Assembly (NCBI RefSeq): GCF_002117005.1
Contig: NZ_CP021023.1
Span: 496,001-560,000 of the forward strand
Direction of reading: 5' to 3'
From: Sedimentisphaera salicampi
GTDB taxonomy: Bacteria > Planctomycetota > Phycisphaerae > Sedimentisphaerales > Sedimentisphaeraceae
DNA length: 64,000 nt
The notes beneath the pieces were generated by a model. That model made no database searches. It was not told the DNA's origin and saw only the letters and a program-made list of their open reading frames with translations. A program made the translations under genes and the position numbers. This document shows positions 22,470 to 34,361 of this stretch, piece after piece; within the stretch, counting starts at the first letter, position 1; every line of letters starts with the position of its first letter.

Positions 22470-22497
22470 GAGACCGTCCCAATTAGTGTGTCTAAAG
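22470..22497 (+). repeat. IS256-family left terminal inverted repeat
   Basis: Starts GAGACCGTCCCAATTA and pairs with the right end over 28 positions with 7 mismatches. The core GTGTGTCT is identical at both ends. Confidence 0.85.
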
Positions 22498-22498
22498 A

Positions 22499-22531
22499 AA
22501 AAGGGATTCCTTTTCTAAGCTATATGCTTAG
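22499..22531 (+). repeat. Two tandem hairpins in the IS leader
   Basis: AAAAGG-N4-CCTTTT (22499-22514) and CTAAGC-N5-GCTTAG (22515-22531), both perfect, sit between the left terminal repeat and the transposase ribosome binding site. They may damp transposase expression from read-through transcripts, as known for other insertion sequences. Confidence 0.6.
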
Positions 22532-22571
22532 TATGTTAAAAAAAAGTCAAATTAAACAAAAAGGAACCCCT

Positions 22572-23810
22572 ATGAAAAGGAATTATAACACAATTTTGGA
22601 AAAAGCGGTTGAAGATTTTCTTGCCCACAGCGGGAAAAGTTTGGAAGATGCAATTCGGATTACATTCGAGACTATTCTCAAAGCCGAGCAGGATGAATTT
22701 TTGGGTTACGTCAACGGCTGCCGGAAAGACAAATCCACGAGCAACAAGCGTAATGGTTACCGTCAGGCTTTAGTCCAGGGATTGCAATCCACTTTCAGGA
22801 TAAACATTCCCCGAGATCGTCTTGGTAATTTTCAGCCATTTTTTCTTGATCTGTTAAATTCTCAGAGAGGCAAATATGATAATTTAGCCTTTAGGTTATA
22901 CAGCAAAGGCCTTACGACTCGAAAGATCGAAGAGATTTTCCAGGAGCTTTTCGAGCAAAATTACTCCAAGAGCAGCATATCTCGCATAACCTCGAATTTC
23001 ACAGAATACCGCAAGCTCTGGCAGAACAGGCCGCTGGATGAAGACTGGTACATCATTTACATTGATGCGGTAAAGGTAAAGCTTCGCAGGGACAAGGTTT
23101 CCAATGAATCGATGTACGTTGCTTTAGGGCTAAAGGAAGACCTAAGTCGAGATGTATTAGGTGTTTACAATATACCAGAAGAGAGCAGCGAAGGCTGGCA
23201 TTCAGTTCTTAAAGACCTCAAAGAGCGTGGAGTAAAGAAGGTTCTTTGCTTTGCTGCAGATGGTCTAAAGGGTTTGTCGGAAACTGTGAGCAGGGTTTAT
23301 CCTTCAAGCGATTTTCAACGTTGTCTTATTCATAAGCTTCGCAATGTACTCAGCAAGGTTCGCCAAAATGACAAGAAGGAAGTTGCCTCAGATTTCAAAG
23401 CGGTCTTCAAGCTTGAAGATGGCAGCTACCGTTTAGAAGATGGTAAATGCGAGCTGGATAAATTTGTGAAGAAATGGGCAAAGAAGTACAGCAGTTTTGA
23501 GAATATTTTCCCTGAGCAGGAGAGGGATGATTATTTCACATATTTGAAATATCCGACTAAACTGCATCGTATGATGTACACCACCAATTGGATAGAGGCT
23601 CTTAACAGGATAATCAGGAGAACCGTTAAAATACGCTGCAGCTTTCCTACAGAAGAAAGTGCGTTGAATCTGATCTGCGCCCGTTTAATGGAGCACAGTG
23701 AGACGAAATTGATGAGGTATAAAGTTACGAGTCTGTTTGCATGCAAGGATGAACTTGATACAATGGCAAAAGAAAGGCGGAAAATTTCACCTCAGGGTAC
23801 CCTGAGGTGA
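22572..23810 (+). CDS. IS256-family (Mutator-type) transposase
   Basis: A 412-residue DDE transposase that cuts and joins the element ends. The catalytic Asp, Asp and Glu are visible in IDAVKVKLR, FAADGLKGL and TNWIEALNR. The latter, and the helical insertion before it, are typical of the IS256/Mutator group. The N-terminal part carries the DNA-binding region. The ATG at 22572 has an AAGGA ribosome binding site; an in-frame start 84 bp earlier lies in the terminal-repeat region and is rejected. The stop codon lies inside a perfect 30-bp palindrome. The gene appears intact and potentially active. Confidence 0.92.
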   Translation: MKRNYNTILEKAVEDFLAHSGKSLEDAIRITFETILKAEQDEFLGYVNGCRKDKSTSNKRNGYRQALVQGLQSTFRINIPRDRLGNFQPFFLDLLNSQRGKYDNLAFRLYSKGLTTRKIEEIFQELFEQNYSKSSISRITSNFTEYRKLWQNRPLDEDWYIIYIDAVKVKLRRDKVSNESMYVALGLKEDLSRDVLGVYNIPEESSEGWHSVLKDLKERGVKKVLCFAADGLKGLSETVSRVYPSSDFQRCLIHKLRNVLSKVRQNDKKEVASDFKAVFKLEDGSYRLEDGKCELDKFVKKWAKKYSSFENIFPEQERDDYFTYLKYPTKLHRMMYTTNWIEALNRIIRRTVKIRCSFPTEESALNLICARLMEHSETKLMRYKVTSLFACKDELDTMAKERRKISPQGTLR

Positions 23811-23985: not shown

Positions 23986-25395
23986 TCAGGTTAGGTTTAT
24001 CTGAAAGTAATTTTCTGCATTTTTAAAGCAGATATCCTGCACCATCCTTCCAAGAGAGTCGATATCTTCGGGGACAATACCGTTTTCTATATCGCTGCCG
24101 AGGATATTACAAAGAATCCTCCGGAAATACTCGTGCCGCGGATAGGAAAGAAAGCTTCGTGAATCTGTGAGCATTCCTATGAACCTGCTCAATAAGCCAA
24201 GGCTGGATAGTGCTTCAATCTGCCTTTCCATGCCGAATTTATTGTCCAAAAACCACCAAGCCGTACCGAACTGCATCTTGCCCGGGATGCTGCCGTCCTG
24301 AAAATTGCCTATCATTGATCCGATAAGCTCGTTGTCTCTTGGGTTCAGGTTGTAGATTATGGTTTTTGCCAAGCTGTCTTTGCTGTTTAATCTATCCAGG
24401 AATTTTGACAGCGGCTTAGCAATTTCTGCATCAAGAATTGAATCAAACCCCGTATCAGGGCCTAGGGCATTGAACATCTTCGAATTATTGTTCCGGAGCG
24501 CACCGAGATGAAGCTGCTGTGCCCAGCCTCTGGAATGATTCATCACTGCAAGTTCAAAAAGCATTGCGGATTTGAATTTGCTCACTTCGTCGAAAGAAAG
24601 CTCTTTCTTCGAGAGAATCTTTTGGAATATTGAATTGATTTCCGTTTCGCTGTAATCCTCTGCGCAAACCGTTTCCAAACCGTGGTCTGATATCCGGCAG
24701 CCGTTTTCATGGAAAAAGCTGTGGCGATTATTTAGAGCTTCGAGATATGCATCGAAATCTGTTATCTCGGTATCCGTTGTTTCGCTGAGCTTATCTATCC
24801 ACTGAATCAGCTTGCCGGTATCCTCTGCTCCCATCGCCTTATCCGGCCGCCATGTTGGGAGAACTTTTATCTCAAACCCGTCCTCAGCAATTTTCTTGTG
24901 ATGCTCCAAGCTGTCTGTTGGATCATCTGTAGTGCAGACAGCTTTAACATTCATCATCCGCATTAGATTGCGGGTGCTGTACTCACTGCTTCTCAGCATC
25001 TCGCTGGTTTTATCGTAAATCCTGTCTGCTGAGGCCGGAGAGAGAAGCTCATCAATCCCGAAATATCGCTTAAGCTCAAGATGGGTCCAATGGTGCAGCG
25101 GATTTTTGAGGGCGTATGGAATCGTTTCCGCCCATTTCTGGAATTTCTCGCGGTCTGAGGCGTTTCCAGTGGCAAATTTTTCATCTACTCCGTTAGTCCG
25201 CATTGCCCGCCATTTGTAATGATCGCCGGCGAGCCATGCCTGAGAAATATTTTCAAACTGAGCATCATCTGCAACCAGCTTCGGCGGCAGATGGCAGTGA
25301 TAATCAAATAAAGGCAAATCCTTAGCGAATTCGTGATAAAGCCTTTGGGCGGTTTTAGTTTGCAGGAGGAAATTATCTGTTATAAAGTTGTCCAT
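23986..25395 (-). CDS. uxaC: Glucuronate isomerase
   Basis: UxaC isomerises D-glucuronate to D-fructuronate (and galacturonate to tagaturonate), the entry step of hexuronate breakdown. The 469-residue length is normal. The metal-binding start FDYHCHLPP, the segment TTDDPTDSLEHH, PTWRPDKAM and the ARHEYFRR-like SYPRHEYFRRILC near the C-terminus are family features. It is the last gene of the minus-strand operon that begins with the SDR oxidoreductase. It starts 27 bp after gnd and is followed by a strong terminator. Confidence 0.95.
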   Translation of the reverse strand: MDNFITDNFLLQTKTAQRLYHEFAKDLPLFDYHCHLPPKLVADDAQFENISQAWLAGDHYKWRAMRTNGVDEKFATGNASDREKFQKWAETIPYALKNPLHHWTHLELKRYFGIDELLSPASADRIYDKTSEMLRSSEYSTRNLMRMMNVKAVCTTDDPTDSLEHHKKIAEDGFEIKVLPTWRPDKAMGAEDTGKLIQWIDKLSETTDTEITDFDAYLEALNNRHSFFHENGCRISDHGLETVCAEDYSETEINSIFQKILSKKELSFDEVSKFKSAMLFELAVMNHSRGWAQQLHLGALRNNNSKMFNALGPDTGFDSILDAEIAKPLSKFLDRLNSKDSLAKTIIYNLNPRDNELIGSMIGNFQDGSIPGKMQFGTAWWFLDNKFGMERQIEALSSLGLLSRFIGMLTDSRSFLSYPRHEYFRRILCNILGSDIENGIVPEDIDSLGRMVQDICFKNAENYFQINLT

Positions 25396-25422
25396 ACCGC
25401 TTTTCCTTTCTGGGAGAATTTC

Positions 25423-26874
25423 CTAAACAATATAGCTTGAAGAAGCGGTTTCTCCGCCGCGTCCAGTCCAGTTGGTATGGAAAAATTCGCCACGAGGCTT
25501 ATCGATTCTTTCGTATGTGTGAGCTCCGAAGTAATCTCTCTGTGCCTGAAGCATATTTGCGGGCAAGCGTTCGCTGCGGTAGCCGTCGTAAAATGCAAGC
25601 GCGCTGCTTATTGCAGGCACAGCAATACCCTTCTGAACGGCAGTTGTAACCACTCGCCTCCAAGCCTGCTGCCCGTTTTGAACAGCCTCTGCAAAGAAAG
25701 GATCGAGCAGGAGGTTAGAGAGCTCAGGATTCTTTTCGAAGGCCTCTTTTATCTTGCCGAGGAATACCGACCGAATAATGCAGCCGCCCCGCCACATCAA
25801 AGCGATTCCGCCGTAATTGAGATTCCAGCCGTATTCAGCCGCTGCAGCTCGCATAAGCTGATAGCCCTGTGCATAGCTTACAATCTTCGAGGCATAGAGA
25901 GCCTTTCGCAAATCATCAATCATTTTCCGCTTATCACCTTCAAACTGAAGAGAAGGGCCGGAAAGCTGCTTTGAAGCCTCAACGCGTTCAGTCTTGAGCG
26001 CAGAAAGACAACGCGCAAAAACGGCCTCGCCTATCAGAGTAAGCGGCTGACCTACATCAAGGGCAGCTATCGCTGTCCACTTGCCTGTACCTTTCTGGCC
26101 AGCAGTGTCCATGATTAAATCCAAAACATAATCACCGTTTTCATCTTTGTAGCCGAGTATATCACGGGTGATTTCGATGAGATACGAATCCAGCTCGCCT
26201 TCATTCCACTCTGTGAACACATCTTTCATCTCTTCGTTGCTCATTCCAAGGCCGTATTTCATAAGCTGATATGTTTCGCAGATCATCTGCATATCGCCGT
26301 ATTCGATGCCGTTGTGCACCATCTTCACGAAATGGCCTGCCCCGTTTTCACCAACCCATTCGCAGCAGGGCTCGCCCTTATCTGTATGAGCAGAGATCTT
26401 CTGGAATATCGGCTTTACATGCTCCCAAGCCTTGGGGCTTCCGCCGGGCATTATTGAAGGGCCTAAAAGAGCTCCCTCCTCGCCTCCGGAAACGCCTGTA
26501 CCGATATAGAGCTTGCCTTCGCTCTCTACGTATTCAGTTCTGCGGATAGTATCGGGAAAATGGCTGTTGCCCCCGTCTATTATTATGTCTCCGTCGTTTA
26601 GATGCGGGAGAACCTGCTCAATGAAGGCATCTACAGGCTTGCCCGCCTTCACCATAAGCATAATTTTCCTCGGGGATTTCAGCGAGCTGAGCAGCTCCTC
26701 CATGCTTCGGCAGCCGATTATATTTTTTCCCTTGGCTCTGCCGCTCATAAAATTATCAACTTTTGAAACCGTGCGGTTATAACAGGCAACGGTAAACCCT
26801 TTGCTTTCCATATTGAGAATAAGGTTTTCGCCCATCACTGCCAAACCTACCACTGCGATATCTGCTTTTGCCAT
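25423..26874 (-). CDS. gnd: 6-phosphogluconate dehydrogenase (decarboxylating)
   Basis: Oxidises and decarboxylates 6-phosphogluconate to ribulose 5-phosphate, producing NAD(P)H. The 483 residues have the N-terminal Rossmann motif GLAVMGENLILNM, the substrate motif GVSGGEEGA, the catalytic Lys/Asn region HFVKMVHNGIEYGDMQ and the long helical C-terminal domain with DxxGQKGTGKWT. Length and motifs fit the homodimeric NADP type. Its position between the PfkB kinase and uxaC is unusual for a hexuronate operon, where KDPG aldolase would be expected. It implies that the pathway reaches 6-phosphogluconate. It lies 24 bp after the kinase gene. Confidence 0.95.
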   Translation of the reverse strand: MAKADIAVVGLAVMGENLILNMESKGFTVACYNRTVSKVDNFMSGRAKGKNIIGCRSMEELLSSLKSPRKIMLMVKAGKPVDAFIEQVLPHLNDGDIIIDGGNSHFPDTIRRTEYVESEGKLYIGTGVSGGEEGALLGPSIMPGGSPKAWEHVKPIFQKISAHTDKGEPCCEWVGENGAGHFVKMVHNGIEYGDMQMICETYQLMKYGLGMSNEEMKDVFTEWNEGELDSYLIEITRDILGYKDENGDYVLDLIMDTAGQKGTGKWTAIAALDVGQPLTLIGEAVFARCLSALKTERVEASKQLSGPSLQFEGDKRKMIDDLRKALYASKIVSYAQGYQLMRAAAAEYGWNLNYGGIALMWRGGCIIRSVFLGKIKEAFEKNPELSNLLLDPFFAEAVQNGQQAWRRVVTTAVQKGIAVPAISSALAFYDGYRSERLPANMLQAQRDYFGAHTYERIDKPRGEFFHTNWTGRGGETASSSYIV

Positions 26875-26898
26875 ATTGTAATCTCCTATATTATTCTG

Positions 26899-27966
26899 TT
26901 ATCTTTTAACTCTGGCATTACCTTCCCAGATGCTCCATAGCTGGTTTTCATCTGCAGGCTGGGCGTAGTCTGTGAGCATAGTTGCAGCGAGGGCTCCGCT
27001 TGCCCAGCCGAAACGAGCACAGCTTGCTGCATCCCATCCCTGCAGGATTCCGTAAAGCAGGCCGCCAACGAATCCGTCGCCGCCTCCGATACGGTCTAAA
27101 ACCCCGATTTCCCTCGGCCTTATGATTTCCCAGTCGCTGCTGTCTGTAAGAATCGCACCCCATTTATGGTTGTTTGCGGATACCACTTCACGAAGCGTGT
27201 TTCCAAACCACTTTGCGTTCGGGTAAGCCGACTGGATTCTGCCAATCATCTCTTTGAAGTTATCGATTTTTTCCTCAAGCCCTTTTCCGCCGGATTTAGG
27301 GCCTTGAATGCCAAGGCAGAGCTGGAAATCTTCTTCGTTGCCGATGAGTATGTCGCTGTTTGTAGCTATTTCAGCAAAAGCTTCGCTGAGCTCTTTTTCG
27401 CGGCCATACCAGAAGCTTGCCCTGTAGTTAAGGTCGAACGAGATAAGCGAGCCGTTTTTCTTGGCAGCTCGAACAACATCAAGGCAGAACTGGCTGGTTT
27501 TCTCAGATAAGGCAGCAACCAAGCCGGACAGGTGGACGATTTGTGCCCCCTCTTCAGCAAAAATTCTTTCCAAATCGAAATGCTCCTTGCTGAGCTCTCT
27601 GCCAACCTCGCCGGCTCTGTCGTTATGAACCCGAGGCCCGCGTGAACCCCAGCCGCTGCCGGCCATATTTATCTGATGGCGAAAGCCCCATGGCCCGCCC
27701 TGCTCGAATTCCTGGCCTTCATAATCCATCCCGCGGCTTTTGAGATTATCTTTGATGAAACGGGATACAGGGCTGCCCTTCACAAAAGCCGTAAGCACCT
27801 TGGCCGGCATTCCCAAATATGAGGAAACGCTCGCTACATTTGTTTCAGCACTTGTCGCCTGCATCTTAAAGTTTTCGCTGCAGTGGAAGGGTTGAGAGTT
27901 TTCAGGCGTAAGCCGAAGCCCCATACTCGTTGGAACAAGGATTGAATACTTTTTCTTATGATTCAT
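26899..27966 (-). CDS. PfkB-family sugar kinase (KDG kinase-like; possibly gluconate kinase)
   Basis: A 355-residue ribokinase-fold kinase. The N-terminal strand TSMGLRLTP, the central DLNYRASFW and NEEDFQLCLG segments and the anion-hole/catalytic motif GGGDGFVGGL (Asp as base) are present. Overall it is most like the group annotated as 2-dehydro-3-deoxygluconate kinases. Because the operon has a LarA-family protein and gnd but no dehydratase or aldolase, phosphorylation of D-gluconate to 6-phosphogluconate is an attractive alternative. The sequence alone cannot decide. The ATG at 27966 has a GGGGA ribosome binding site. An upstream extension would run into the preceding gene and is rejected. 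Confidence 0.8.
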   Translation of the reverse strand: MNHKKKYSILVPTSMGLRLTPENSQPFHCSENFKMQATSAETNVASVSSYLGMPAKVLTAFVKGSPVSRFIKDNLKSRGMDYEGQEFEQGGPWGFRHQINMAGSGWGSRGPRVHNDRAGEVGRELSKEHFDLERIFAEEGAQIVHLSGLVAALSEKTSQFCLDVVRAAKKNGSLISFDLNYRASFWYGREKELSEAFAEIATNSDILIGNEEDFQLCLGIQGPKSGGKGLEEKIDNFKEMIGRIQSAYPNAKWFGNTLREVVSANNHKWGAILTDSSDWEIIRPREIGVLDRIGGGDGFVGGLLYGILQGWDAASCARFGWASGALAATMLTDYAQPADENQLWSIWEGNARVKR

Positions 27967-27994
27967 TTTTCCCCAATCATCTTCTAAAATTGCC

Positions 27995-29245
27995 TTAACT
28001 CTTCCAGAGCCCGAGCCCTGGATTTGAAATGTAATAAATATCTTCGCCGTCAATATTATTGAACCCGTCATTTAATTCATCAGGGTTGTACTTTTCCATC
28101 ATTTCATCCAAATCGGCATATCTGAAATTCACCGATTCAATCTCCTCTCTCGTTAATCCGCCCGGGCAGTAGGTAATATTGAACCGCCCTTCTGAGGAAC
28201 CGTGAATCAGGTGAGCGGCAGCGCTTAGATTATCGCTCAAATCACTGTTTTTCTTTGTATTCTCAAGAACATCGGGCGTTCCTGTATAGCCGTATTTGCG
28301 AATCAAATGGTCAATCTGTTTATCCTCGCCGAATTCCTTAACACCCGGGGCAAGAATAATCAGCTCGCCTCCATCTGCCATAGCCATACGAGTTCGGTAA
28401 ATAGCCTTGTTTCCAAGCCATGTGCTTTTGTACTCATCTGCCTCTAGCAGGACAACAGCTTTTTTTAAGGGTCTTTCCAACTGGGTTACATTTACCTTCT
28501 CAGACAGCTCAGCTGCCTTATGGAAACATTCTGCATCATCGCCTATAAACAGCCCGCGGGTAATATTCTCGTTTTCGCCGGCTTCAATAACAGTATGAGC
28601 GTAAACAACGGGCAGATGGCGGGCAAAATTCTCGCTCGCATAATTCAGAACGCTTCGAACAGGATTATCCGCCCTTCCCATTATTTGCTCCATCCCGTAA
28701 ACGGCTCCCAGATAATGGCTTTTGTTGATGCCCTCAGCCCCGCCAGTGCCAACGAAGATGTTCTTGTTGTAGTTGGCCATGCCGATAACCTCGTGCGGGA
28801 CGACTTGCCCTATCGAAAGGATAAGATCAAAATCGCCCTCTGAAATGAGCTTATTCACCTGAGCAGGCCAGTCGAAGTTGAGCCTCCCTCCGCTAACCTC
28901 GCTGATGTAGCTCGACGGCACCCTGCCTAGAGCAGTTATATCCTCCCGCCAATTATGCACTCGGAACAAATCAGAGGGTACATCTCCGAACATCCGCTTG
29001 ATTTCCGTCTCTGTCATGGGATTGTGAGTTCCAAGGGCGGGGAGAATATCAGTAAGCTTATCTCCGTAATACTCCCACGCAAAGCGGGTAAGCTCGCCGG
29101 CACGGGAATAGAATCTCGTATTATCCGGCGGGACAACAAGAACCCTTTTGCAGGCTCCAAGCATATCGAGAGCCTCAAATAGAGCTGATCGCAAATCTCG
29201 GCCGGACAGTTTTGCGTTTTCGCTGCCTGAGCTGCAGTAAAGCAT
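27995..29245 (-). CDS. LarA-family nickel-pincer enzyme, candidate mannonate/gluconate 2-epimerase
   Basis: A 416-residue member of the lactate racemase LarA superfamily (DUF2088). Residues matching those that hold the nickel-pincer nucleotide and substrate in L. plantarum LarA are visible: D41-x-T-R44 (PPDNTRF), H74 (ALGTH), H151, K161 and H177. The H-K-H distances of 10 and 16 residues equal those of LarA H174, K184 and H200. Known family members include D-gluconate 2-epimerases, established knowledge recalled without checking. Here the neighbours make D-mannonate and use 6-phosphogluconate, so mannonate-gluconate epimerisation is the best inference. The start at 29245 has a GAGGGG ribosome binding site. 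LarB is encoded at 46867-47643. Confidence 0.8.
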   Translation of the reverse strand: MLYCSSGSENAKLSGRDLRSALFEALDMLGACKRVLVVPPDNTRFYSRAGELTRFAWEYYGDKLTDILPALGTHNPMTETEIKRMFGDVPSDLFRVHNWREDITALGRVPSSYISEVSGGRLNFDWPAQVNKLISEGDFDLILSIGQVVPHEVIGMANYNKNIFVGTGGAEGINKSHYLGAVYGMEQIMGRADNPVRSVLNYASENFARHLPVVYAHTVIEAGENENITRGLFIGDDAECFHKAAELSEKVNVTQLERPLKKAVVLLEADEYKSTWLGNKAIYRTRMAMADGGELIILAPGVKEFGEDKQIDHLIRKYGYTGTPDVLENTKKNSDLSDNLSAAAHLIHGSSEGRFNITYCPGGLTREEIESVNFRYADLDEMMEKYNPDELNDGFNNIDGEDIYYISNPGLGLWKS

Positions 29246-29290
29246 AATCAATTCCCCTCTAAAACGGAAAAAACCGAATATCCACCCTAA

Positions 29291-30109
29291 TTAAACGCCG
29301 CTGAAGGCACTGAATCCCCCGTCGATAGGGATTACAGTTCCCGTTACAAATCTTGAAGCATCGCTCAAAAGCCAGAATACAGTGCCGCTGAGGTATTCAG
29401 GCTTCCCGAATTCACCCATTGGTGTATGGTCTATAATCGTCTTTCCTCTGTTGGTAAGCTCGCCAGTTTTCTCGTCTGTTAGCAGGAAGCGGTTCTGCTC
29501 TGTGAGGAAAAATCCCGGCGCAATGGCATTCACCCTTATATCGGGGGAATAATTATTTGCCATATGAACTGAAAGCCATTTAGTAAAGTTGCTTACGGCG
29601 GCCTTGGCCGCTGCATAGCCGCAGATATTCGTTAGCGGGGTTAGAGCTGCCATACTCGAGACATTGAGTATGCTGCCCTGCTTTTTATCTGCAAAATACT
29701 CTCCGAACACCTGAGAGGGAAGGAAAGTGCCGAAAAAGTTCAAGTCAAACACGAAATGCATCGCATCCTCGGGTATATCAAAAAATCTCATATCTCCCGA
29801 GGCAGTAGCGTCTTTACGGTTCCCTCCTGCGCCGTTAATAAGCCCATCAACACCGCCCATTATCTCTACAGATTTTTCGAGCGTCTGCTGGATTTGTTCT
29901 TTATTAAGAACGTTACATTTAACAGCCGAGGCAGAATTACCCTGCTCATTTATTTCTTCTGCAACCTTCTGTGCCTTTTCTTCATCGTAATCAGCAATGC
30001 AGATTTTAGCCCCGCCAGCGGCCAGATCATTAGCCATCCTGCTGCCTAAAACCCCTGCGCCGCCTGTTATAACATACCTCTTTCCAGTCAGGTCAAACAT
30101 ATTTTTCAT
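29291..30109 (-). CDS. uxuB: SDR-type D-mannonate oxidoreductase (fructuronate reductase)
   Basis: A 272-residue short-chain dehydrogenase with the Rossmann motif TGGAGVLG, INGAGGN, the catalytic Ser-Tyr-Lys set (NVSSMAA, YAAAK) and a C-terminal IPIDGGFSAFSG. It resembles the UxuB/YjmF class that reduces D-fructuronate to D-mannonate with NADH. The operon partner uxaC, which makes fructuronate, supports this. It is the first gene of the catabolic operon, with a GAGGT ribosome binding site, a near-consensus promoter and an operator-like palindrome upstream. The symbol reflects function by context; the protein is not related to the long-chain E. coli UxuB. Confidence 0.8.
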   Translation of the reverse strand: MKNMFDLTGKRYVITGGAGVLGSRMANDLAAGGAKICIADYDEEKAQKVAEEINEQGNSASAVKCNVLNKEQIQQTLEKSVEIMGGVDGLINGAGGNRKDATASGDMRFFDIPEDAMHFVFDLNFFGTFLPSQVFGEYFADKKQGSILNVSSMAALTPLTNICGYAAAKAAVSNFTKWLSVHMANNYSPDIRVNAIAPGFFLTEQNRFLLTDEKTGELTNRGKTIIDHTPMGEFGKPEYLSGTVFWLLSDASRFVTGTVIPIDGGFSAFSGV

Positions 30110-30134
30110 TTAGCTACCTCAATATTTTACTTTT

Positions 30135-30151
30135 AACTCAAGCTCTGAGTT
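30135..30151. promoter_or_regulatory. Operator-like palindrome at the uxuB transcription start
   Basis: AACTCA-N5-TGAGTT, perfect. It starts three bases downstream of the -10 box of the minus-strand promoter, over the expected transcription start. It is the same motif as the one at 30199-30215. Confidence 0.7.
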
Positions 30152-30153
30152 TT

Positions 30154-30181
30154 ATTATAACTAAAAAAATTACAAGTTCAA
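30154..30181 (-). promoter_or_regulatory. Promoter of the hexuronate catabolic operon
   Basis: On the minus strand a -35 TTGAAC (30176-30181), a 16-bp spacer and a -10 TATAAT (30154-30159). Confidence 0.75.
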
Positions 30182-30192
30182 AGAATAATTTC

Positions 30193-30220
30193 TTGAAAAA
30201 CTCATTGACTGAGTTAATAT
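30193..30220 (+). promoter_or_regulatory. Promoter of the ROK regulator and TRAP operon
   Basis: A -35 TTGAAA (30193-30198), a 16-bp spacer and a -10 TAATAT (30215-30220). The ATG at 30227 begins 6 bases after the -10, where transcription should start, so the mRNA is predicted to be leaderless. Confidence 0.65.
30199..30215. promoter_or_regulatory. Operator-like palindrome in the ROK gene promoter
   Basis: AACTCA-N5-TGAGTT, perfect, filling the spacer between the -35 and -10 boxes and touching the first base of the -10. It is probably bound by the ROK protein as autorepressor. Confidence 0.7.
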
Positions 30221-30226
30221 ACTTGT

Positions 30227-31432
30227 ATGAACGTAACTGCAATAGATTCAAAAAACGCAGGCCTTAAGAATGAAAGGCTTGTTCTCAAGCTTTTGCGCAA
30301 CCAAACAACGCTCTCTCAGGCTCAAATCTGCCAGAAAACTGGTCTGGGCAGCTCTACTGTTACTTACATTGTGGGAAGGCTTAGAAACAAAGGGCTGATC
30401 AAAGAAACCCTCGGAGAAAGCACAAAAAGAGGTGCGAGGCCGAAGTGGATCTCAATCAATCCAGACGGCGGTTTTGTTGCAGGGGCAGAAATATCTCCAA
30501 ACCATATCTCAATAGCTTTATACAATTTGGATTCCACTCAAAGAGACAGAGTTAAGCTGCCTTTGGCTTCCGACCGTTCTGCAGAAAATGTTGTAAAGCT
30601 GCTGGAAATCACCATAAAGGGCATTCTCAACAAACATGAATTGAAGATAGACAAGCTTTTCGGTATCGGGCTGGCTCTGAGCGGTTCGATCTCGCCTGAA
30701 GGTGTTGTTAAGCTTTCAGGACCTATGTGCTGGAAAAATGTGCCTTTGAAGGCGATGCTTGCTGAGTATTTCGAATGCCCTGTTTATGTTTACACAACAA
30801 AGGTCCGCCTTCTCGCAGAGCTGGAAGCTTCTCCATCTCTTAACCGAAAGAATATTGTTTACTTCAATGTTGCAGACGGCGTGGGGCTCAATAACATAAT
30901 CGACGGAAATCTCATCAACGGAGCAACAAACCGCTGCGGTGAGATTGGGCATATAGTAATAGATCGAAAGGGCCCTCTTTGCGGCTGCGGGCAGCGTGGC
31001 TGCCTTGAAGCACACATTTCCGGACCGGCGATTGCCGAGAAGATTATGAAAGACCTTGCCTCTGGTATCGAAAGCGGATTTTCGGAGGCTTTGAACGAAG
31101 AAAACGAACCGGAAGACATTGTCAGGGAGTGGAAAAAGCTTATCAGCGAACAGGATCAATACGCCTTATCACTTCGAGATTACGCAGCCGATAAAATTAG
31201 CTGGGCAGCGGCTATGGCAATAAATATGTTCGACCCTGAAGTATTGATACTCGCTGGATACGTTAATGATGCCTGCTCTGACTTTTTTATGCAGTCTATA
31301 TTAAATCGTTTCAAAACAGATGTATATGACGAAACTTCAAGAAATATCAAAATAATACCGGCAAAAGCCGGCCTTGAGGCTCTGATGAAAGGTGCATCGG
31401 AAGCTGTTATAGAAAAACATTTCAGTATATAA
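30227..31432 (+). CDS. ROK-family transcriptional regulator (NagC/XylR type)
   Basis: A 401-residue regulator. The N-terminal winged helix-turn-helix (about residues 20-70: LSQAQICQKTGLGSSTVTYI) is followed by a ROK sugar-sensing domain with the zinc motif GEIGHIVIDRKGPLCGCGQRGC (cysteines near residue 255) and ExHISGPA. Such proteins repress sugar operons and release DNA on binding a sugar or sugar phosphate. It lies divergent to the hexuronate catabolic operon and directly upstream of the TRAP transporter genes, so it probably controls both. The inducer may be a uronate or aldonate. No ribosome binding site is seen before the ATG, consistent with a leaderless message. Confidence 0.88.
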   Translation: MNVTAIDSKNAGLKNERLVLKLLRNQTTLSQAQICQKTGLGSSTVTYIVGRLRNKGLIKETLGESTKRGARPKWISINPDGGFVAGAEISPNHISIALYNLDSTQRDRVKLPLASDRSAENVVKLLEITIKGILNKHELKIDKLFGIGLALSGSISPEGVVKLSGPMCWKNVPLKAMLAEYFECPVYVYTTKVRLLAELEASPSLNRKNIVYFNVADGVGLNNIIDGNLINGATNRCGEIGHIVIDRKGPLCGCGQRGCLEAHISGPAIAEKIMKDLASGIESGFSEALNEENEPEDIVREWKKLISEQDQYALSLRDYAADKISWAAAMAINMFDPEVLILAGYVNDACSDFFMQSILNRFKTDVYDETSRNIKIIPAKAGLEALMKGASEAVIEKHFSI

Positions 31433-31453: not shown

Positions 31454-32464
31454 GTGAAGAAAGAATCTTCGTTTTTCGTAAGCGGTTTAATTATCGGCCT
31501 TATCGCAGCGACGGCCATATTTTCATTGTTTGTCCGCTCTATGGACGGGAGGTCTGAAAAGACAGTGCTGAAGCTCGGCCATTGTCTCGACACAAACCAT
31601 CCGGTACATAAGGGAATGGTGTTTATGAAAGAGCGTATAGAAGAGCTCTCCGGCGGAGAGGCAACGATCGATATTTATCCCAGCAGTGTGCTCGGGTCTG
31701 AGGTGGAATGTATTGCCCAGCTTCGCAGCGGAGACCTTGCAATGACCAAAACCTCAGCTGCTTCTCTTGAGAATTTCGTTCCTGAGCTGAAGGTATTCGG
31801 CCTTCCCTACCTTTTCAGATCTGAAGAGCATTTCTGGACAGTTCTTAAAAGCGAGCTTGGCAGGAAGCTGCTCGAAAAAGGCAACAATAAAGGTGTGAAG
31901 GGGCTTTGCTACTACGATTCAGGCAGCCGAAATTTCTACACTAAAGACACGCCTATAAAGACACCTGAAGATTTGAAAAATTTGAAGATAAGAGTTATGA
32001 ACAGCGAGATGGCAATGAAAATGGTAAGCTCGCTCGGGGCTTCTCCAACACCAATTGCATGGGGCGAGCTCTATACAGCTCTTGCACAGGGAACAGTTGA
32101 CGGAGCAGAAAACAACCCGCCCAGCTTTACTACAAACAAGCATTACGAGGTTTGTAAGCATTTCTCAAAAGACGCCCATACGCGAATACCAGATGTGCTG
32201 TTGATAAGCACAAAGATATGGAACACCCTCGATAACAGACTGCAGGGATGGCTGGTGCAGGCAGCCGGAGAATCCAGAGAATACCAGAGACAGCTTTGGC
32301 AAGAAGAAACAAAGGAATCGCTTGAAACAGCTAAAGAAAACGGTGTAACTATACATGATGTTGATCAGAGCCTCTTTGCTGAGAAAGTTCAGCCTCTTTA
32401 CGAAGAGATGGAAGATCAGAAAATGAAAAATCTTGTAGAGAAAATTCGAGAGATTAAACCATGA
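31454..32464 (+). CDS. dctP: TRAP transporter substrate-binding protein, uronate type
   Basis: A 336-residue periplasmic binding protein with an N-terminal signal/anchor (about residues 8-28). The conserved Arg that binds the substrate carboxylate is in LKIRVMN (about residue 178), and GTVDGAENNPPSF is typical of DctP proteins that bind sugar acids. It delivers substrate to the DctQM membrane unit using an ion gradient. The start is GTG with a GGGG ribosome binding site, 21 bp after the ROK gene. The neighbouring uxaC/uxuB genes suggest glucuronate or a related hexuronate as ligand. Confidence 0.88.
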   Translation: MKKESSFFVSGLIIGLIAATAIFSLFVRSMDGRSEKTVLKLGHCLDTNHPVHKGMVFMKERIEELSGGEATIDIYPSSVLGSEVECIAQLRSGDLAMTKTSAASLENFVPELKVFGLPYLFRSEEHFWTVLKSELGRKLLEKGNNKGVKGLCYYDSGSRNFYTKDTPIKTPEDLKNLKIRVMNSEMAMKMVSSLGASPTPIAWGELYTALAQGTVDGAENNPPSFTTNKHYEVCKHFSKDAHTRIPDVLLISTKIWNTLDNRLQGWLVQAAGESREYQRQLWQEETKESLETAKENGVTIHDVDQSLFAEKVQPLYEEMEDQKMKNLVEKIREIKP

Positions 32465-32976
32465 AAATAGCGATACTCAAAAAAACAAGATACTGGCTCT
32501 GCCGACTGCTTGAATACGGTCTGATTATTGCGATGGCAGTGCTTGTTCTGGACGTATTGTGGGGCGTATTTACCCGTTTCGTTCTTGGCGGGCAGGCAAA
32601 ATGGACAGAAGAGCTTGCTCGATTTCTGCTTGTCTGGGTTGCCCTTCTTGGCGGAGCCCTTGCATTTGGCGAAAATGCTCATCTCGGGGTTGATTATTTC
32701 GTTGGAAAACTCGCACCTGAGGCGAGGAAGCTGGTTAAAGTTTTCACTCAGTTCATAGTCCTTTTTTTCGCTATAGCTGTATTCATAATCGGCGGTACTC
32801 AGGTAGTTTCTGCGAATATGGACCAGACAACTGCTGCCCTAACTCCAGCTGTAGGCATAACGATGGGGCACGTATATCTTGCCCTACCAATTGCCGGGGC
32901 ATTTATGATCTTGTTTACAGCAGAGCAGCTTGCAGAAACATTTCTTGAAAAAGACCAGCAGAAGGAGGAAAACTAA
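32461..32976 (+). CDS. dctQ: TRAP transporter small permease
   Basis: A 171-residue protein with four membrane segments and the DctQ pattern around the first two (RFVLGGQAKWTEELARFLLVWVALLG). It supports assembly of the large permease and docking of the binding protein. The start overlaps the dctP stop (ATGA). A GGAGG at its 3' end serves as ribosome binding site for dctM. Confidence 0.9.
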   Translation: MKIAILKKTRYWLCRLLEYGLIIAMAVLVLDVLWGVFTRFVLGGQAKWTEELARFLLVWVALLGGALAFGENAHLGVDYFVGKLAPEARKLVKVFTQFIVLFFAIAVFIIGGTQVVSANMDQTTAALTPAVGITMGHVYLALPIAGAFMILFTAEQLAETFLEKDQQKEEN

Positions 32977-34361
32977 TGGGATCGATAACACTGATTCTTG
33001 TACTGGGATTCGTACTCCTGCTTATAATTAACGTTCCTATAGCCGTTTCTATCGCTGTTGCAGCCTTTATGGCAATAGCAGCTCAGGGCAGCGACCCTTC
33101 AGTTATGATAGCGGCGAAAATGGCCGAGGGGGTAAACAGCTTTGCCCTTCTTGCGATTCCATTCTTTATCTTTTCCGGCCAGCTTATGGGCAGAGGCGGA
33201 ATGGCACGGAGACTCATAGATTTTGCAAACTCTCTTGTTGGTATGTTCCCCGGAGGGCTTGCCTACGTTAATACGCTGACCTGTATGCTCTTCGGATCTA
33301 TTTCAGGGTCTGCAGCTGCGGCAGTTTCATCTGTTGGCGGATTTATGATTCCCGAGATGAACAAAAAAGGCTACAACCGAGAGTTCAACGTAGCAGTAAC
33401 TACCACCGCTGCTACTACGGGGCTCCTAATCCCTCCGAGCAATGTAATGATTGTGTATTCAGTTGCAGCGGGGAGCGTTTCGATTGCAGCAATGTTTATG
33501 GCGGGGATTCTTCCCGGCATCATCACCGGTCTTTTCATTATGCTTGTATGCGGCTATTTCGCCTTCAAACACAAATACAGCTCGGCAGACAGGGTTTCAT
33601 TTGTGGAGGCTCTGCTGTCGTTCAAGCGAGCAATCCTAAGCCTTCTGCTTGTTATAGTAGTTATAGGCGGAATCCTCAAAGGCATATTCACCGCCACTGA
33701 AGCGGCGGCTGTAGCAGTGCTTTATGCGTTCATACTATCAGTAATGGTTTATCGGGAAATAAAGATGAATGAGCTTCCCGAAATACTAAAAAAAACAGGC
33801 ATAACAACAGCTGTGGTAATGCTTTTAATAGGAGCAAGCTCGGGAATGAGCTGGATAATGACAATGGCCAACATACCGCAGTCTGTAAGCAGCGGACTGA
33901 TAAGCCTTTCAGATAATCCAGTTGTGATTCTCTTTACAATCAATCTGCTGCTCCTGTTTGTTGGAACTTTTATGGATATGACCCCCGCAGTGCTTATATT
34001 TACGCCGATTTTCCTGCCCGTAGTTAAAACTATGGGTATGCACGAGATTCACTTCGGAATAATGCTCATAGCCAACCTTTGCATCGGGCTTTGCACTCCG
34101 CCGGTTGGGACGTGCCTGTTTATTGGATGCGGGGCAGGAAAAACCACTATCGCAAAAGTTACCCGCTATATGCTTCCATTTTTCGGGGCAATGGCAGTAT
34201 CGCTGATGGTGATTACGTACGTTCCAAAGGTCTCGCTGTGGCTGCCGGTTAAAACGGGACAGCTCAAGGCGGAGGCTGTAGAAAAAACCGTTCAAGAATG
34301 GAACAGCAACGTTTTAGGTATGGAGCCGAATAAGAAAGCCGAAGAATCCGGCGAGCAATAG
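32976..34361 (+). CDS. dctM: TRAP transporter large permease
   Basis: A 461-residue membrane protein of the DctM type, with about 12 hydrophobic segments. It has FGSISGSAAAAVSSVGGFMIPEM and a repeated-fold half with IGASSGMSWIMTMANIP, both typical of the ion-coupled translocation unit, plus a TPPVGTCLFIGC segment near the end. It forms the channel for uptake of the DctP-bound acid. Its ATG shares one base with the dctQ stop. It is the last gene of the ROK-dctPQM unit, followed by a terminator. Confidence 0.93.
   Translation: MGSITLILVLGFVLLLIINVPIAVSIAVAAFMAIAAQGSDPSVMIAAKMAEGVNSFALLAIPFFIFSGQLMGRGGMARRLIDFANSLVGMFPGGLAYVNTLTCMLFGSISGSAAAAVSSVGGFMIPEMNKKGYNREFNVAVTTTAATTGLLIPPSNVMIVYSVAAGSVSIAAMFMAGILPGIITGLFIMLVCGYFAFKHKYSSADRVSFVEALLSFKRAILSLLLVIVVIGGILKGIFTATEAAAVAVLYAFILSVMVYREIKMNELPEILKKTGITTAVVMLLIGASSGMSWIMTMANIPQSVSSGLISLSDNPVVILFTINLLLLFVGTFMDMTPAVLIFTPIFLPVVKTMGMHEIHFGIMLIANLCIGLCTPPVGTCLFIGCGAGKTTIAKVTRYMLPFFGAMAVSLMVITYVPKVSLWLPVKTGQLKAEAVEKTVQEWNSNVLGMEPNKKAEESGEQ

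Follow-up and report, generated by a model that had tools for sequence, protein, structure and literature searches.

How the divergent genes of a uronate-catabolism locus in Sedimentisphaera salicampi are switched, and where the message of their regulator begins, is the question raised by a 64,000-nt stretch of this genome (GCF_002117005.1, NZ_CP021023.1, positions 496,001-560,000, forward strand), hereafter the window, meaning the whole stretch of DNA analysed. A 117-bp intergenic gap (30110-30226) lies between the ATG of an SDR gene (30109, minus strand) and that of a ROK-family regulator gene (30227, plus strand). The favored answer, to which we assign a probability of about 0.8, is that the ROK protein would act as a repressor at two operators in this gap, O1 and O2, shutting off both uronate catabolism and its own synthesis until released by a uronate intermediate, and that its message would be leaderless.

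Twin palindromes on divergent promoters

The elements of the intergenic gap are as follows.

30135..30151, candidate operator O1: AACTCA-N5-TGAGTT over the predicted catabolic-operon start at about 30147 (sequence scan; position recurs in 16 of 20 loci, the window's included)
30154..30159, minus strand, -10 TATAAT of the catabolic operon (promoter scan)
30176..30181, minus strand, -35 TTGAAC of the catabolic operon, spacer 16 (promoter scan)
30193..30198, plus strand, -35 TTGAAA of the ROK gene (promoter scan; conserved in relatives)
30199..30215, candidate operator O2: AACTCA-N5-TGAGTT filling the 16-bp ROK spacer and sharing the first -10 base (sequence scan; conserved)
30215..30220, plus strand, -10 TAATAT of the ROK gene, six bases 5' of the ATG (promoter scan)

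The two palindromes are exact, reading AACTCAAGCTCTGAGTT at 30135-30151 and AACTCATTGACTGAGTT at 30199-30215, and no further match at 0 or 1 mismatch occurs elsewhere in the 64-kb window, where about 0.005 exact copies are expected from base composition and 2 were observed. A sequence-only reading had described two perfect 17-bp palindromes in the 117-bp gap, one over the start of the catabolic operon (TTGAAC-N16-TATAAT) and the other within the spacer of the ROK promoter (TTGAAA-N16-TAATAT); direct scanning reproduced all coordinates, hexamers, and spacings, and both placements recur in relatives. Promoter-like matches between 30000 and 30400 are confined to these two divergent promoters (0.7 expected). 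O1 starts two bases past the -10 of the minus-strand promoter. The usual 7-nt rule would place the start of transcription at about 30147, within the palindrome. Operators lying over the +1 or in the -35/-10 spacer occupy the positions typical of simple repressors. The same palindrome overlaps the polymerase contacts of both divergent promoters in a conserved layout, which is real and, judged from its elements, a fairly classical divergent autoregulated switch.

If the palindromes serve as operators for the adjacently encoded ROK protein, a ROK dimer at O1 would, without inducer, mask the site where transcription of the SDR-LarA-PfkB-Gnd-UxaC operon starts, and a second one at O2 would mask the -35/-10 spacer of the ROK gene's own promoter, with the outcome that the catabolic genes, the TRAP transporter, and the regulator would all be kept down. 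The sequence-only reading had likewise predicted repression of both promoters by the ROK protein; the recurrence of the placements in relatives fits the repression, and the identity of the binder is what we infer. Activation of one of the two promoters, as practiced by some ROK regulators (the ROK-type dual regulator CysR is listed for Corynebacterium; PMC2580772), appears very improbable at this locus, since both sites overlap the RNA polymerase footprint, one at the start site and one in the -35/-10 spacer, where binding normally blocks, and no upstream site was found.

The regulator and the uronate genes

The genes flanking the gap are as follows.

30227..31432, plus strand, ROK-family regulator with wHTH and ROK domain, predicted leaderless (PF00480, E 1.7e-42; HTH_24, PF13412, E 1e-7)
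29291..30109, minus strand, SDR of the D-mannonate oxidoreductase subfamily, first gene of the operon (NF006132, 359 bits vs 281 cut-off)
27995..29251, minus strand, LarA-type nickel-dependent putative hexonate epimerase (NF052594, 663 bits vs 500 cut-off)
26899..28071, minus strand, PfkB-family sugar/sugar-acid kinase (PF00294)
25423..26874, minus strand, decarboxylating 6-phosphogluconate dehydrogenase, Gnd (TIGR00873)
23986..25395, minus strand, glucuronate isomerase UxaC (NF002794)
31454..34361, plus strand, TRAP transporter genes dctP, dctQ, and dctM, the first of them 21 nt past the ROK gene

The product of 30227-31432 joins an N-terminal winged HTH to a ROK domain, which places it among ROK-family regulators. 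It carries CGCGQRGCLE, a form of the ROK-family metal motif CxCGxxGC(L)E, whose C and G positions reach 90% consensus among 33 aligned proteins, and by sequence its nearest solved structures are Lmo0178 (5f7r, 5f7p), the ROK regulator 1z05, and Mlc. On the minus strand, the first ORF start of the PfkB gene overlaps the LarA gene, and a later start is likely. The operon genes fit a path from glucuronate through fructuronate, mannonate, gluconate, and 6-phosphogluconate to ribulose 5-phosphate, and mannonate dehydratase is absent among the genes of the operon (23986-30109); possibly, glucuronate enters the pentose phosphate pathway in this way, by a route resembling the one with gntE in Thermotoga. 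LarA groups 19 and 20 are described as epimerizing mannonate/gluconate, and group 18 has been proposed to act on a hexonate (PMC7583248; also PMC11770544), a role that the operon content supports. The inducer would be an intermediate of the uronate pathway, likeliest fructuronate, mannonate, or gluconate, whose binding would release the ROK protein. The TRAP genes are probably part of the ROK transcript, as they begin only 21 nt past the ROK gene, so O2 probably controls uptake as well. Directly downstream of uxaC, a 440-aa ORF on the plus strand (22488-23810) resembles, by eye, a mutator-type transposase.

A third candidate operator in the genome

Scanning the whole genome for the motif, which had been proposed earlier as a check on the pair, returned three exact copies in 3.19 Mb (about 0.26 expected), two at the ROK gene and one on another promoter; all three are intergenic and on promoters. 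The third copy (L005:4652-4668, equal to G000:C1:329651-329667) lies outside the window and is flanked by a URO-D-family gene and a 3-keto-disaccharide hydrolase gene, followed by Gfo/Idh/MocA, ApbE, and Gfo/Idh/MocA genes. Two bases separate the end of its promoter, TTGACA-N16-TATCTT, from the palindrome, as at O1, leaving 4 nt from the -10 to CTCA, and the palindrome overlaps the promoter's start. The equivalent position in the sister species reads AGCTCAAGGCTTGAGTT, with one base changed. By a matrix built from 42 sites upstream of ROK genes, the third site not among them, it scores 19.1, and the best hit in a 400-kb background sample, inside an open frame, scores 17.7. The 3-keto-disaccharide hydrolase was found in 9 of 16 genomes searched; strong sites are confined to the two genomes of this genus (19.1 and 22.1 bits), and one more genome has a 14.5-bit site.

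A wider regulon was considered and rejected. The genome holds four one-mismatch sites, all of them, by eye, within genes or at gene ends, giving seven matches at no more than one mismatch against three in the reversed control, and the number of sites with up to two mismatches (91) is barely above that of the control (88), so no wider regulon is visible. The 8-base core CTCA-N5-TGAG is too unspecific for this purpose. It occurs 57 times in this genome (G000) and 40 times in the sister (G001), about three times as often as in the reversed controls (20 and 12); the occurrences are mostly poor as operators, the matrix scores covering only those on retrieved loci.

Conservation across the order and the probable binder

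Relatives of the ROK protein at E <= 1e-70 were found in 34 of 161 genomes of the order, and 33 upstream regions were read, that of G307 being cut off and a second, cut-off copy in G430 being left out; for ten relatives the start codon was moved to an upstream in-frame one close to the conserved N-terminus. The second copy in G430 (G430:C8:27634-28467, L125) is partial (query residues 122-401), contains one in-frame TGA, and is probably a decaying duplicate.

Exact CTCA-N5-TGAG cores number 22 in the first 29 of these ROK upstream regions, the window's included, against 0.025 from shuffles, and cores with at most one mismatch number 41 against 2.06, with the caveat that these regions are related sequences and the counts are not independent. 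An exact core is present in 13 of the 29 regions, at least one core with no more than one mismatch in 24, and none in 5. Taken with the window and genome counts, the shuffles rule out a chance origin of the palindrome pair. In the 42-site matrix, CTCA-N5-TGAG is flanked on the outside by A-rich sequence 5' and T-rich sequence 3'. In most loci, TTGAAA/TTGAAT-like and TAnnnT hexamers bracket the proximal operator. Of 20 loci examined on the divergent side, 16 place a -10 three or four bases ahead of the core, the exceptions being G326, G013, G012, and G376; the set comprises loci with a distal site at no more than one mismatch, and G043, G047, G449, and G461 had such a site and were left out. 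In 22 of 28 loci a divergent SDR gene occurs upstream (in several of them it is not the immediate neighbor), and LarA, Gnd, and UxaC occur in many. Between the sister genomes, the marked elements are identical at 52 of 57 positions and the remaining gap at 44 of 60. DNA looping was also considered and set aside: the twin sites are 63-64 bp apart in four loci and 129-131, 116, or other distances apart elsewhere, and such variable spacing gives no common helical phase.

These data bear on the possibility that the palindromes bind another regulator, either global or a second local factor, with the ROK gene merely a neighbor. Outside the core, the motif's 5' side is A-rich, whereas the known ROK sites described in PMC4856308 are T-rich 5' and A-rich 3', which would suit such a factor. 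However, the motif follows ROK genes throughout the order, and two of only three exact genome copies sit at the ROK gene. Moreover, the ROK clade with the helix ..SSTASTIVAR.. tends, by eye, to have CACA in one half-site, as if helix and half-site had evolved together, an association confounded by ancestry. A different binder is therefore improbable, and the ROK protein remains the preferred candidate. This reading would provide a ROK regulator with a well-defined candidate operator in an order of bacteria whose regulation is little studied, tied to uronate use via a nickel epimerase and extended by a third target operon.

A predicted leaderless regulator message

The -10 of the ROK promoter is separated from the ATG by six bases (30221-30226), and by the usual 7-nt rule the +1 would consequently fall on A30227, the first base of the ATG. 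The start codon itself is fixed by an in-frame TAA at 30215-30217, which excludes an upstream start, and by the lack of any alternative ATG, GTG, or TTG in the first 10 codons. No SD-like tetramer was found upstream of the ROK ATG, and a normal 16S 3' end, GGATCACCTCCTTT (anti-SD), is present three times in the genome. An ATG six bases past the -10 and devoid of a ribosome binding site had been noted in the sequence-only reading, and both the sequence and the SD scan agree with it. The leaderless message predicted there is well supported: the -10/start distance is 6, 6, 6, and 7 in four related loci, and the sister species retains the geometry, as do two more relatives whose protein is 57% identical, although the six bases themselves have diverged (gaps of 6 and 6 nt in the sister pair, with only 2 of 6 bases in common). 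The ROK transcript would probably begin at the A of the AUG and be translated from this 5'-terminal AUG without a Shine-Dalgarno sequence. Such a start may keep repressor synthesis low, while the downstream transporter genes on the same message would use their own ribosome sites.

Within one genome, geometry alone is weak evidence, because among 344 ORFs sampled from 464 kb of this genome, 5, counting the ROK gene itself, have a promoter-like match at a gap of 6-7. That looser 344-ORF set has 11 promoter matches at gaps 4-8 and none at 9-12, and 77 unambiguous ATG genes have two matches at gaps 5-8, not above other gaps. Three ORFs of this genome (L116:8215, L117:12133, and L103:11395) have a promoter-like match 7 nt 5' of the ATG and no SD, and are possible further leaderless genes.

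Alternatively, a more distant promoter might give the ROK message a normal leader, with translation by non-SD initiation, through S1 or A/U-rich sequence. Weaker promoter-like matches (8/12) do lie upstream at gaps 37 and 68, and non-SD initiation has been proposed for Planctomycetes from one species (PMC5397173). The gap-6 promoter, however, carries the operator in its spacer, as in leadered relatives, and is therefore the conserved one, and the gap length has been kept in the four related loci despite base changes. A leadered message is thus unlikely, though less so than a different binder, and a leaderless message starting at the AUG is probably what this promoter yields.

Leader length among relatives

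The distance from the -10 to the start codon was assigned in 27 of the 33 loci (G047, G012, G376, G025, G002, and G427 were left out); in G430, G036, G008, and G006 the automatic promoter rule picked the distal operator, and the gaps were taken from a separate promoter scan. Short gaps of 6-9 nt occur in 9 of the 27 loci: 6 in G000, G001, G055, G034, and G006, 7 in G430, and 9 in G021, G017, and G033. The other 18 have longer gaps, 14 in G449 and 19 to 91 in 17 loci, and none falls at 10-13. An SD-like motif is absent from all nine short-gap loci and present in 11 of the 18 with gaps of at least 14. The proximal operator is not recognizable in the short-gap loci G034 (4 core mismatches) and G006, and in G043 an alternative in-frame ATG would, by eye, give a gap of 6.

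A tree of 32 proteins, from which G047 was omitted, requires at least three changes to account for the short state, at least two of them forced by well-supported branches. A same-strand ORF begins within 70 nt downstream in all five gap-6 loci and in 0 of 14 assigned loci with gaps of at least 14, the loci not being independent; as further caveats to an operon-head position, the downstream gene in G006 has its own promoter and that in G034 looks unrelated, and a link between short gaps and heading an operon is at most a lead. The G006 gene in question (L081) resembles nikR by eye and shows TATAAT, six bases, and ATG, a second leaderless-type regulator start.

It is conceivable, if somewhat short of an even chance, that the operator locks the ROK promoter in place while its leader disappeared (or reappeared) on two or three occasions, leaving lengths of 0-3 nt or of at least about 8 nt and nothing between, with leader loss serving as a repeated throttle on a repressor that heads its own operon. 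Repeated leader loss beside a fixed operator would be the most interesting side of the finding, and the occurrence of one probably autoregulated gene both with and without a leader offers a natural series for asking why repressor messages often lack a leader.

Comparison with known systems

The S. salicampi protein shares with NagC-, Mlc-, and XylR-type ROK regulators the wHTH and ROK domain, the CxCGxxGC motif, and probably control of sugar genes, and differs in its site, here CTCA-N5-TGAG with A-rich 5' flanks; the usual, non-defining ROK operator type, described as T-rich 5' and A-rich 3' (PMC4856308), is not matched by the 42-site matrix. The Thermotoga maritima UxaR regulon (gnd-uxaRED-gntEK) likewise serves uronate catabolism via a LarA-type mannonate/gluconate epimerase and Gnd, but UxaR is a GntR-family protein with another site, and LarA belongs to group 20 there and putatively to group 18 here (PMC3750489). 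Among the matches listed from the open-licence literature, none concerned a leaderless ROK message or a Planctomycetes ROK regulon or leaderless case like this one.

The repressors lambda cI and Tn1721 tetR are autoregulated. Both are named as having leaderless messages in PMC3017554, and they differ from the ROK switch in protein family and in their phage or transposon setting. The nearest parallel, by analogy, is AcuR of Rhodobacter sphaeroides, a leaderless, autorepressed catabolic regulator. In the acuR-acuI-dddL operon, as described in PMC3017554, the repressor gene likewise comes first, its TTGATT...TATTAT promoter is overlapped by an inverted repeat, the transcript 5' end has been mapped exactly to the AUG with no Shine-Dalgarno sequence, and the regulator is translated less than the downstream genes. 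AcuR differs in belonging to the TetR family, in its operator TAATAGAC-N6-GTCTATTA, and in its inducer, acrylate (PMC3017554), whereas the S. salicampi locus combines a ROK protein, divergent twin operators, and uronate genes, with a 5' end that is predicted. The finding is right and ordinary in kind, and with it a probable ROK switch would join the known leaderless, autorepressed regulators.
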